Below are positions 20,841 through 62,578 of a stretch of DNA of 62,815 bases, piece by piece (positions within the stretch are counted from its first letter, which is position 1; each line of letters opens with the position of its first letter). The DNA is taken from NCBI RefSeq assembly GCF_900104055.1, contig NZ_FNJQ01000022.1:1-62815 (forward strand), read 5' to 3'. The notes under the pieces were generated by a model. The model was not told the origin of the DNA. It saw only the letters and a program-made list of their open reading frames with translations, and did no database searches. The position numbers and the translations under genes are program-made. This DNA is from Pseudoselenomonas ruminantium. Lineage in GTDB: Bacteria > Bacillota > Negativicutes > Selenomonadales > Selenomonadaceae.

Positions 20841-21401
20841 TTATCTGTCTCCCCAGGAAACCACGATGAATTTCGCGCGGAAAACTTCTTGGGTTTCATT
20901 ATGGGTTTTTACCCATATAAAATATTTATTGCCTCGCACTTTGACGATTTCCGCCTTGGCAATCAGCTTTTCACCTACATGAACAGGCACCTTGTACTTC
21001 ACATTAGCTACGCCGGTGACCGCCATAGGTGCATCCACAATGGCCATGGCCAGGGAATCTGCCTGAGAGAACATATAATGTCCCTTGGCAATCTGCGTCT
21101 TGGCAAAGACCATATCCTCCGTAATTCTCAGCAAGGAAATGCCCGAATGACCAAGTTCGAGGTCAATGAGTTCACCGACCACTTCACCACTTTGGATGGA
21201 TTTTACCTTGTTCTGGGCATTTTCCGCCATCTTGCGAATGCGGCCCCGCAGTTCCGGAATTCCGAGTTCCAAACGATCCAAACGGATAGTCTGCACGCTG
21301 ACATCCAGCTGCTTGGCCAGTTCCTCATCCGTCAGGAATGGTTTCAACTTTACCTTCTCAATCAATAGTTCCTGACGGATTTTTTTCTTGACTCTTGCCA
21401 T
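20841..21401 (-). CDS. fapR: Transcription factor FapR (malonyl-CoA-responsive lipid repressor)
   Basis: FapR represses fatty acid and phospholipid genes until malonyl-CoA binds. It has 186 residues. An N-terminal helix-turn-helix (about 1-60, with LTDEELAKQLDVSVQTIRLD) is joined to a hot-dog effector domain ending in RGNKYFIWVKTHNETQEVFRA. The start at 21401 follows AGGAGG. It is the first gene of the operon, and a FapR-type box lies between the promoter and the start, indicating autoregulation as in Bacillus. Confidence 0.95.
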   Translation of the reverse strand: MARVKKKIRQELLIEKVKLKPFLTDEELAKQLDVSVQTIRLDRLELGIPELRGRIRKMAENAQNKVKSIQSGEVVGELIDLELGHSGISLLRITEDMVFAKTQIAKGHYMFSQADSLAMAIVDAPMAVTGVANVKYKVPVHVGEKLIAKAEIVKVRGNKYFIWVKTHNETQEVFRAKFIVVSWGDR

Positions 21402-21420
21402 TCGTACACCTCCTTCCAAA

Positions 21421-21541: not shown

Positions 21542-21570
21542 TTGACTTTAACGCTTTTCTATGCTATCAT
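21542..21570 (+). promoter_or_regulatory. Promoter of the unassigned structured RNA
   Basis: TTGACT (21542-21547), 17 bp, TATCAT (21565-21570). It is back to back with the fapR promoter and about 350 bp before the IMP dehydrogenase start. Confidence 0.7.
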
Positions 21571-21576
21571 ATCTGT

Positions 21577-21770
21577 AAGTTAGATAAAGAAGCAACTCGA
21601 AAAAGGTAATAGCTAGCCGTAGAGAAGCTTCATCTAATAGCAGTTCTGGCTCGTGAAGGAGGGGAGTCCAATGGGCCCGTAAGACTGGTTCCCATGAAAA
21701 AGATGAAAATAGAATACGTGATGATTAACTAGCAGCTTGACCGGGTAAGGCAGGCTGCTAGTTGCATTTC
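21577..21770 (+). ncRNA. Unassigned structured RNA of about 190 nt (sRNA or riboswitch-like leader)
   Basis: No protein frame fits this gap, but it is densely paired. TTAGAT + GAAGC (21580-21593) pair perfectly with GCTTC + ATCTAA (21627-21637). A GGGGAGTCC...GACTGGTTCCC region lies in the middle. A perfect 10-bp hairpin AACTAGCAGC/GCTGCTAGTT (21727-21763) is followed by a moderately T-rich stretch. The segment CTAATAGCAG (21634-21643) nearly repeats the left arm of that hairpin, so the right arm has two possible partners, as in attenuators. I could not match it to 6S, tmRNA, SRP, T-box, SAM, TPP or purine classes by eye. Confidence 0.55.
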
Positions 21771-21815
21771 CTTATTATATAAGTGTAAAGTTGTAACATG
21801 AATTTTATTTTCTGA

Positions 21816-21845
21816 TTGACACGAGGTTACCATATATATTAAGAT
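21816..21845 (+). promoter_or_regulatory. Probable promoter of the IMP dehydrogenase gene
   Basis: TTGACA (21816-21821) with TAAGAT 18 bp downstream (21840-21845). A GGCGG/CCGCC hairpin (21862-21877) lies in the following 80-bp leader. If active, the gene need not depend on the RNA at 21577-21770. Confidence 0.5.
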
Positions 21846-21923
21846 ATAAAACAATATACATGGCGGTATATGCCGCCTGTAGCTTTATGTAGATTCCATA
21901 GTATCAAGAAAGAAGGGGTTAAG

Positions 21924-23432
21924 TTGGCATTCTATTTTGAAGAACCATCACACACTTTTGGCGAGTATCTCCTCGTTCCCGGCTATTCCTCGGACAAATG
22001 CATCCCGGCAAATGTTTCCTTGAAAACACCGCTGGTCAAGTTCCGCAAGGGTGAGGAACCGAAGATCACCATGAACATCCCTATGACCTCTGCAATCATG
22101 CAGGCGGTTTCCGATGACAACATGGCTATCGCACTGGCCAAAGAGGGCGGTGTGTCCTTCATCTACGGTTCCCAGAGCATCGAAAATGAAGCCGCTATGG
22201 TTTCCCGTGTGAAACATTATAAATCCGGTTTTGTCAGCAGCGACTCCAACATCAAGCCCTCCACTACCCTGGGCGAAATCCTCGACCTGCTGCAGGATAC
22301 TGGCCACTCCACGATGGCTGTAACGGAAGACGGCACGGCCAATGGCAAGCTCCTGGGTATCGTCACGAGCCGTGACTACCGTGTTTCCCGCATGTCCATG
22401 GATACACCGGCCAGCGAATTTATGACGGCCTTCGAGAATCTGGTTTATGCTAAGGCCGAAGAAGTCACCACGATTGGTCAGGCCAACGATATCATCTGGG
22501 AAAACAAGCTGAACATGCTCCCGATCATCGACAAGAACCAGCGTCTCCTCTACATGGTTTTCCGTAAAGACTACAATGCCAACAAAGACAATGAGCTCGA
22601 ACTCATTGACGACAACAAGCGCTACATCGTTGGTGCTGGTATCAACACCCGCGATTACGCTGAGCGCGTGCCTGCCCTGCTGGAAGCTGGCGCCGATGTT
22701 CTCTGCATCGACTCCTCCGAAGGCTTCTCCGAATGGCAGCGCATCACCCTCAAATACATCCATGAAAACTTCGGCGAAGATGTTAAAGTCGGTGCCGGCA
22801 ATGTCGTTGACGCCGAAGGCTTCCGCTTCCTGGCTGAAGCTGGCGCAGACTTCATCAAAGTCGGTATCGGCGGCGGCTCCATCTGCATCACCCGCGAAAC
22901 CAAGGGTATCGGCCGCGGTCAGGCTACGGCACTGATTGACGTTTGCCGTGAGCGCGATAAGTATTATGAAGAAACCGGCATCTACATTCCGGTCTGCTCC
23001 GATGGTGGTATCGTCCATGACTATCACATGACGCTGGCTCTGGCCATGGGTGCAGACTTCCTGATGCTGGGCCGCTACTTCTCCCGCTTTGACGAAAGCC
23101 CGACGGATAAGGTCAAAGTCAACGGCACCTACTACAAGGAATACTGGGGCGAAGGTTCCAACCGTGCCCGCAACTGGCAGCGTTACGACCTGGGCGGCTC
23201 CAAGAAACTCTCCTTCGAAGAAGGCGTTGACTCTTATGTTCCTTACGCCGGCCCGCTCAAGGACAACGTTGGCACGACTCTGGCCAAGATCCGCAGCACC
23301 ATGTGCAACTGCGGCTCCCTGTCCCTGCCCGAGTTCCGCGACAAGGCAAAACTCACGCTGGTATCTGCTACGAGTATCGTCGAAGGCGGTTCCCATGACG
23401 TAATCCTTCGCGATCGTCTCGGCCGCGAGTAA
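21924..23432 (+). CDS. guaB: IMP dehydrogenase
   Basis: It oxidises IMP to XMP with NAD+, the first step to guanine nucleotides. The 502-residue barrel enzyme has a paired CBS regulatory domain at about 105-225 ([13 protein letters not shown] and VTSRDY). The catalytic loop is [15 protein letters not shown], with the nucleophile Cys321. [11 protein letters not shown] and [11 protein letters not shown] form the phosphate site. The usual GPGS of the loop is GGGS here, a variant seen in the 500-residue anaerobe subfamily. The start is TTG 21924 after GAAGGGG; the ATG at 21870 would add 18 unlikely residues. It is transcribed alone and followed by a strong terminator. Confidence 0.93.
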
Positions 23433-52973: not shown

Positions 52974-53124
52974 CCTGTCGTGCTCTCCTAGGGCCTGTCT
53001 CCCATCTCGCAATGGGGCTTTCGCCGTATTCTATCGACCGAGCCGGCCGGAAGGCATCCGCTGACGTTTCGACAACCTTCTCCTCGTCTTCTGAAAGCAC
53101 GCACTGCTTTCAGAACTTGCGCTA
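52974..53124 (-). ncRNA. glmS ribozyme (glucosamine-6-phosphate-activated, self-cleaving)
   Basis: The leader of glmS contains the conserved core. The cleavage context is TA/GCGCAAG, with the cut expected between 53123 and 53122. A perfect 10-bp P1 stem TTCTGAAAGC/GCTTTCAGAA follows, then GACGAGG and GTTGTCGAAACGTCAGCGGA, and a 3' domain ending near CACGACAGG. In this class the metabolite is the cofactor for cleavage, and the cut mRNA is degraded, giving feedback on GlmS. Confidence 0.9.
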
Positions 53125-53213
53125 GAACTTGCGTCCTTTTACTACACCAGAACAACAGGATGATTTTCTCTGGATTTCCTCTCTTCTTGTGCTTTATTCC
53201 TTAGCACCCGTAT

Positions 53214-62194: not shown

Positions 62195-62271
62195 TGGTGG
62201 CGGCAAAGAGATTTGAACTCCTGACACTGCGGGTATGAACCGCATGCTCTAGCCAACTGAGCTATGCCGCC
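62195..62271 (-). tRNA. tRNA-Met (elongator, anticodon CAT)
   Basis: 77 nt with encoded CCA. The acceptor GGCGGCA/TGCCGCC is fully paired, and the stem TGCGG/CCGCA carries TTCATAC. The paired first base separates it from the initiators upstream. The close match to known elongator tRNA-Met argues against tRNA-Ile2, though CAT alone cannot decide. Confidence 0.92.
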
Positions 62272-62276
62272 ATATA

Positions 62277-62352
62277 TGGAGCTGATAACCAGGATTGAAC
62301 TGGTGACCTTATCCTTACCAAGGATACGCTCTACCGACTGAGCTATATCAGC
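62277..62352 (-). tRNA. tRNA-Thr (anticodon GGT)
   Basis: 76 nt with encoded CCA and discriminator T. The acceptor GCTGATA/TATCAGC is fully paired, and the anticodon loop TTGGTAA carries GGT. Confidence 0.95.
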
Positions 62353-62364
62353 AACATTAACATT

Positions 62365-62440
<76 letters not shown>

Positions 62441-62502
62441 ATTACTTTATCATATCTCGTCAGCCCTGTCAAACTCTTTTTTTGAAAAAGTTTTAATAAA
62501 TT

Positions 62503-62578
<76 letters not shown>

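Follow-up and report, generated by a model that had tools for sequence, protein, structure and literature searches.

What occupies the gap ahead of the IMP dehydrogenase gene of Pseudoselenomonas ruminantium, and does it serve that gene? The window, i.e., the whole stretch of 62,815 nucleotides that was analysed, corresponds to contig C49 of genome G000 in the genome set searched. Between a minus-strand gene, presumably FapR-like, and the IMP dehydrogenase gene, an earlier note had described a structured RNA with a promoter, a split stem, a G-rich section and a final hairpin, and had seen in it either a riboswitch with two competing pairings or a free-standing small RNA. The features recognised at this locus are listed in Table 1.

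Table 1. Features in and around the RNA locus of the window
Feature	Position	Strand	Basis
Gene upstream of the gap	20841-21419	-	ORF list
Promoter of the RNA, TTGACT-17-TATCAT, extended -10	21542-21570	+	promoter scan; kept in relatives
RNA 5′ end	expected near 21577	+	from promoter position
5′ split hairpin	21579-21638	+	minimum-energy fold; helices 1 and 2 covary
Loop GGUAAUAGCUAGCC	21605-21618	+	identical in 13/13 type I RNAs
Very strong Shine-Dalgarno region AAGGAGGGGAGUCC	21656-21669	+	predicted −18.0 kcal/mol with 16S 3′ end
Minigene AUG-GGC-CCG-UAA (Met-Gly-Pro-stop)	21671-21682	+	frame comparison across the family
Possible hairpin of AUGGG (21671-21675) with CCCAU (21691-21695), minigene stop in the loop	21671-21695	+	moderate support
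Second micro-ORF MKKMKIEYVMIN-stop, 12 codons, with its end inside the terminal hairpin's left arm	21694-21732	+	family frame counts
Terminal hairpin, probable terminator, weak T run to ~21770	21727-21763	+	fold; covariation
Promoter-like site TTGACA-18-TAAGAT before IMP dehydrogenase	21816-21845	+	promoter scan; similar letters in related loci
IMP dehydrogenase ORF	21870-23432	+	Pfam IMPDH 361 bits; probable start TTG at 21924

The sequence from 21577 to 21775 folds with −60 kcal/mol, a lower energy than in any of 200 dinucleotide shuffles (z −3.18), and the two hairpins that had been proposed, the split 5′ stem and the terminal hairpin, covary in an alignment of 13 rows of type I, the form found in the window, whose 5′ hairpin carries the loop GGUAAUAGCUAGCC. 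Over these 13 rows, 13 pairs are changed on both sides versus 7.6 in shuffles (a value reached by 0 of 500 shuffles), the covariation score is 0.388 versus 0.229, and paired cells amount to 93.5% versus 85.1%. Further pair types in the type I hairpins do not exceed the shuffles (355 of 500), no covariation was detected in the 13 rows for the helices around the core, and the core alone folds no better than shuffles in most of the seven pieces tested. For the second form of the RNA, type II, the alignment yields just 15 predicted pairs, three of them with changes on both sides. The final hairpin is absent from the list returned by the terminator scan, and its T run is poor in the window copy.

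A search of Rfam 15, which the earlier note had recommended after recognising no class, returned no match to the window RNA, either at the gathering cut-off or at E-values up to 10. Among 27 related loci searched at E-values up to 1, L010 alone gave a hit on the RNA, to Thr_leader (29.1 bits, with 55 required; E 0.18). Both 6S RNA (RF00013) and tmRNA (RF00023) were rejected as candidates, their matches in G000 lying at other loci, on contig C64 and, above the cut-off, on contig C30, respectively. No report of this RNA family was found among the literature matches listed. On the evidence of the fold, the covariation and these searches, we conclude that a structured RNA does exist here and that it corresponds to none of the catalogued families.

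Relatives were identified in 60 of 380 Negativicutes genomes, all from Selenomonadaceae and covering 11 of the 30 genera of this family, with one to three copies per genome located beside different genes. At the nucleotide level, matches were obtained in 17 of the 99 other genomes of a set of 100, including genomes from two other genera, and these matches share the almost invariant core AAGGAGGGGAGTCCRATGGGCCCGTAA. The exact motif GGAGGNGANTCCNATGGG, which specifies nothing downstream of itself, including the stop discussed below, occurs in 53 of the 380 Negativicutes genomes, 52 of them Selenomonadaceae, and its reversed version, used as a control, in 0 of 380; in the 53rd genome (G236) it lies where an ordinary protein with a signal peptide begins. 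With a sequence model of the core (R1), 57 genomes were retrieved at E-values up to 1e-4, all Selenomonadaceae; G218 (3e-4) and G227 (2.3e-4) were counted as members by eye, and G220, missed by the model, was recovered with the terminator-loop motif. In genus g1 (Selenomonas), the exact motif is present in all 15 genomes with a completeness of at least 90%, and 10 of the 19 carriers have two copies. Neither plasmid records nor viral contigs contained members. When one genome of each species was scanned for a type I-like pattern, 23 stretches were obtained. Twenty belong to Selenomonadaceae or to uncultured relatives of that family; the other three, in an Oscillibacter MAG and two Nocardiopsis records, lack an early in-frame stop and look like chance hits. 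As far as these searches reach, the RNA family is so far confined to Selenomonadaceae. Five loci (L058, L074, L075, L133 and L135) were left out as non-members by context from the minigene, promoter, Shine-Dalgarno and second-frame counts given below, and these counts are not independent, since the sites are related.

Weak matches to the core model were obtained in 13 genomes (E 2.2e-4 to 0.0079), five of which were inspected (G231, G232, G205, G236 and G307). Those in G231 and G232 read like coding sequence, and those in G205 and G236 are gene starts. The match in G307, from another Negativicutes family (L188, C4 near 565553-565598; E 0.0014), reads ATG GGC TAG behind GGGGGTGAGTCC and sits past the end of an apparent coding frame; it is either a distant relative or a chance resemblance.

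The letters of the core are near-invariant and follow the pattern AAGGAGG-RGAKUCC-R-AUG-GGN-(NNN)-stop, that is, a very strong Shine-Dalgarno sequence with a minigene of two or three codons, the combination that would mark a regulatory minigene. From GGAGG to the ATG there are 8 nt (9 in genus g25), followed by a Gly codon, mostly one free codon and the stop. Codon 3 or codon 4 is this stop in 73 of 76 distinct member sites (73 of 78 with no locus left out) and in 68 of 70 distinct contexts with the exact upstream motif, the exceptions being a Nocardiopsis record and L129. The members without early stop are L124, which closes at codon 7, L129, which closes at codon 6, and L177, which carries an 8-nt duplication whose second copy is intact. 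An early stop is present in 23 of 26 distinct 12-mers, versus a mean of 3.4 and a maximum of 13 in 20,000 shuffles of the seven letters behind ATGGG, and 44 of 47 distinct 16-mers have the stop in frame, versus 0, 1, 2 and 5 at other offsets. The Gly codon can be GGC, GGA, GGT or GGG, the stop UAA, UGA or UAG, and codon 3 CCG, CAG, CAC, CAT, AGG, CGG, TGG, TAT, TAC, TTT or ACG; in some minigenes codon 3 itself is TAG, and codon 4 is then free. Six loci of genus g25 were fetched by the terminator-loop motif alone, and five of them read MG-stop or MGR-stop, the sixth being L177; four further copies of genus g3, obtained with the core model, read ATG GGC CCG TAA.

The 3′ end of 16S rRNA is GGATCACCTCCTTTCT in five relatives (it was not found in the draft genome G000). 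Its predicted pairing with the 20 nt upstream of the ATG ranges from −14.9 to −21.4 kcal/mol over 45 distinct sites, with a median of −17.1 and −18.0 in the window, whereas for 46 long ORFs of the window that do not overlap, each taken with its best start, the median is −10.8, and a single one of the 46 is stronger than −18.0. The letters behind AAGGAGG mostly contribute 5–6 kcal/mol extra, beating about 92% of shuffles at the median; they could form a GGA/UCC hairpin rather than extended pairing with 16S rRNA. Two other coding interpretations were rejected: a longer protein frame through the core (G-G-E-S-N/D-G-P-V), because a stop codon directly precedes GGAGG in several copies (e.g., L011 and L015), and a frame starting from the type II letters CCGACATG, whose reading frame varies between copies (judged by eye). 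The most conserved part of the RNA is, by comparison of its relatives, a minigene behind an extreme Shine-Dalgarno sequence, and the gap in which the earlier note saw no protein frame contains, in its central G-rich section, this Shine-Dalgarno sequence with a three-codon frame, followed by a frame of 12 codons.

The near-invariant core letters could also mark a sequence-specific binding site, in which the core and the loops would be bound by a protein or by target RNAs and the minigene would remain untranslated, and the invariant 14-nt loop of type I and the invariant GGUGACGAGAAAGC of the type II hairpin (in rows partly chosen by motif) fit such a site as well. We consider this rather improbable: the core changes like codons do, with a free codon 3, wobble in the Gly codon, three kinds of stop and a stop shifted by one codon, and the other frames of the minigene contain few stops. 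A sponge for CsrA, similar to CsrB or RsmY, would require CsrA in all carriers and an enrichment of ANGGA motifs; these motifs exceed shuffles (p up to 0.05) in four of 33 rows, and CsrA itself is present in 51 of 60 relatives. This explanation was rejected as extremely improbable, as 29 of the 33 rows have no ANGGA enrichment, the window copy contains one ANGGA, and no CsrA match was obtained in five of 11 carriers searched (three of genus g11, Mitsuokella, as well as G042 and G220).

Downstream of the minigene, a second ATG-started frame of 7–15 codons extends to the terminal hairpin and, in the short forms of the RNA, stops at the hairpin foot. With the hairpin located by script, and after removal of nine g9 sites without located hairpin and two repeated segments, such a frame of six codons or more was found in 49 of 62 distinct RNAs, versus 7.8 expected from shuffled spacers; it is missing in 13 (L010, L044, L047, L078, L095, L098, L099, L101, L103, L124, L125, L127 and L129, five of which belong to g9). 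Within genus g9, the frame is present in 6 of the 13 measurable RNAs and missing in 7, one of the 14 RNAs being unmeasurable. When the frame is anchored on the stop letters of the hairpin, frame 0 is open in 52 of 61 sites and the other frames in 13 and 8, in a test that leaves aside 15 sites without anchor and in which some anchors of tandem copies fall past the next core. The stop letters are partly dictated by the hairpin (AAUAACC with GGUUAUU), whereas the open frame is not. Within groups of relatives, codon positions 1, 2 and 3 of this frame show 27, 52 and 49 changes, respectively, and 15 codon changes are synonymous versus 78 non-synonymous; the peptide is therefore not constrained. On these counts, what is kept in the second micro-ORF is the open frame and not its peptide.

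A frame that stops inside the left arm of the terminal hairpin, as it does in these 49 of 62 RNAs, is what a cis attenuator of transcription would use: on completing the second micro-ORF, a ribosome would mask that arm and let RNA polymerase continue into the following gene, IMP dehydrogenase in the window and DUF362 at other loci, with the minigene metering the supply of ribosomes. We retain this reading because the second frame ends where a terminating ribosome would cover the arm. In many loci the following gene has the same orientation as the RNA, and a DUF362 gene recurs in several genera. It is nevertheless unlikely, since the next genes are convergent in G031, G014, G047 and G015, the downstream genes differ in function, and a promoter-like site stands between the hairpin and the IMP dehydrogenase gene in the window.

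The surroundings of the family bear on this point. The promoter scan gave three promoter-like sites versus 1.7 in shuffles, which alone is not beyond chance. Across the family, 67 of 75 sites have a promoter-like site upstream, its spacer being 17 nt in most cases, versus 5.2 in shuffles, and the sites without it are mainly later tandem copies and those of genus g15. The promoter of the earlier note is present and has counterparts in the relatives, and the separate promoter-like site of the IMP dehydrogenase gene agrees with the free-standing small RNA that the note had named as an alternative. Same-strand downstream neighbours encode IMP dehydrogenase, DUF362, ABC transporter, saccharopine dehydrogenase or OPT proteins, and convergent ones an ADP-ribosylglycohydrolase (G031), a UDG superfamily protein (G014), a HAD protein (G047) and two unnamed ORFs (G015). 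The DUF362 genes lie behind type II copies in several genera (identified by Pfam for one, by the same N-terminal letters for the others), a recurrence that may reflect inherited gene order or a cis role. The sole copies located before IMP dehydrogenase are those of type I in genus g1, and in G014 the convergent UDG superfamily gene is inserted between the RNA and the IMP dehydrogenase gene. These varying and partly convergent neighbours, together with the UDG gene in G014, argue for a stand-alone RNA and against an IMP dehydrogenase riboswitch. As far as the sequences tell, the RNA has its own promoter, its own 3′ hairpin and varying neighbours, the features of a stand-alone small RNA, and the constant link to IMP dehydrogenase or its pathway expected of a cis riboswitch was not found. 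In related type I loci, letters resembling TGTAAAGTTGTAACATGAATTT, situated at 21782-21815 of the window between the RNA and the IMP dehydrogenase promoter, recur and may correspond to an operator.

The reading first put forward for this locus, in which the RNA would sense a purine or (p)ppGpp and control IMP dehydrogenase as its riboswitch or attenuator, was rejected as very improbable in the light of these data: type I copies of g1 do precede this gene, but in most genera the RNA is located elsewhere, a UDG-like gene intervenes in G014, and the competing arm is not conserved. In the window, that arm, CTAATAGCAG, can pair with the terminal hairpin's right arm, and 6 of 500 shuffles are as good. 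Among 13 RNAs including the window, this type of pairing is matched by at most 9 of 500 shuffles in three, by 34 and 42 in two, and by at least 217 in eight; L006 and L008 are comparable to the window, L003 and L009 are weaker, and 8 of the 13 are at chance. Of the pairings put forward in the earlier note, the 5′ stem and the terminal hairpin are borne out by the relatives, whereas the duplicated arm fits in the window and is not kept.

Other pairings were also evaluated. In all 13 type I rows, the invariant 5′ loop GGUAAUAGCUAGCC could pair with the terminal hairpin's right arm, beating at least 430 of 500 shuffles in each; in three RNAs of other types, the result is not striking (41, 83 and 273 of 500). 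We regard this pairing as a weak lead, given the kinship of the rows, the likeness between left arm and loop, and the unremarkable result in the other types. A hairpin between AUGGG and a downstream CCCAU has moderate support, with at most 5 of 100 shuffles as good in 31 of 75 sites. Pairing of an upstream element (GGCUCGU or GCCGACAU) with the ATG was rejected: it reaches that level in 0 of 75 sites, and the helix has no two-sided changes.

The RNA is probably engaged by ribosomes rather than sensing purines, because its most conserved part is a strong Shine-Dalgarno sequence with a frame of two or three codons. We propose, with about even confidence, a stand-alone small RNA gene of about 190 nt in which the act of translation, and not the peptide, would be selected. 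In this mechanism, the 5′ hairpin would be followed by the exceptionally strong Shine-Dalgarno sequence and the minigene, presented to the ribosome; ribosomes that initiate and at once terminate on the minigene would be retained on the RNA and, by reinitiating on the second frame, would reach the terminal hairpin, and this translational activity would set the stability of the RNA, its 3′ end or the exposure of its loops. Comparison of the relatives establishes a separate promoter, covarying hairpins, the minigene frame and a second open frame; the RNA is presumably made, ribosomes would use both frames, with the consequences just described, and the output could be stability, termination or trans-regulation. 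More tentatively, and with less than even confidence, the family may represent a new class of small RNAs with translation as regulatory input, in which a minigene with a hyper-strong Shine-Dalgarno sequence would park or meter ribosomes and a second frame free of peptide constraint would lead them to the 3′ hairpin, reporting ribosome availability or initiation rate to trans targets.

Dual-function small RNAs such as SgrS/SgrT and SR1/SR1P have their own promoter and a reading frame, and their peptides are conserved and functional. The RNA described here shares with them the promoter and the frame, but neither of its frames shows peptide constraint. In the trp and tna leader-peptide attenuators, a short frame ends at a terminator-like hairpin; this arrangement is shared, but no regulatory codon run is seen here, and the gene behind the hairpin differs between loci, with convergent orientation in some of them.

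Regulatory minigenes have been described in mRNA leaders, the examples including axe-txe, LEE1 ler, LEE4 espADB and Bacillus subtilis ycbK, and a ribosome on a minigene or its Shine-Dalgarno sequence is described as shielding RNA from RNase E (PMC8708949). As in the leaders treated there, a Shine-Dalgarno sequence and a frame of two to a few codons are followed by a second frame downstream, and occupancy by ribosomes, and not the peptide, would be what counts. Unlike the minigenes in that account (PMC8708949), which stand in leaders of protein genes, the present one would be the conserved heart of a free-standing RNA, and the frame that follows has 7–15 codons and an unconstrained peptide. The gltD and ldh2 motifs, described from Selenomonadales/Negativicutes as structured riboswitch candidates before gltD and Ldh_2 genes (PMC8632094), are structured RNAs of related bacteria as well; as far as they are characterised in that description, they differ from the present RNA, for which 0 of 10 tested neighbours is a gltD or Ldh_2 gene.

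Minigenes have been recognised as cis elements within individual leaders. A small RNA family that retains one of two or three codons across 11 genera, with codon 3, the type of stop and the second peptide all variable, would argue on evolutionary grounds that starting and stopping translation on a nearly empty frame can be a function of its own. The RNA offers a compact test object with defined point mutations (Shine-Dalgarno sequence, ATG, stop and second frame) and is a candidate new RNA family in rumen and gut bacteria.

The family comprises several forms. In type II, letters resembling GCCGACAUG precede the core, and GGUGACGAGAAAGC in the terminal hairpin is identical in 20 of 20 rows, these rows being partly chosen by GGUGACGAGAAAGC; these 15 letters alone occur in 43 of the 380 genomes. 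At type II loci such as L078 (1412-1586, minus strand), the loop of the terminal hairpin, GGUGACGAGAAAGCC, is near-invariant, which is not usual in a plain terminator. The core of genus g9 forms part of a longer RNA of about 560 nt, with the promoter about 230 nt upstream of the ATG and the type II loop about 340–370 nt downstream of the core. At the g9 loci (L104 about 1320-1890; L091-L103), this RNA has a promoter to itself, contains a GCTAGC element and carries the terminator loop of type II, and Rfam searches with four of them (L104, L091, L093 and L100; E up to 1) gave no match; the g9 RNA may be a large non-coding RNA in its own right. Tandem cores are found in three of four g15 genomes, with two cores, and in G042, with three. 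At L077 (1513-1800), L018, L082 and L083, each of the two or three tandem cores has a minigene (MGR, MGT, MGR; MGP then MGQ). Elsewhere in the window, the minus strand carries a glmS ribozyme match (52977-53134, 75.3 bits) and, at 62195-62578, a cluster of three tRNAs with CAT anticodon and one tRNA-Thr.
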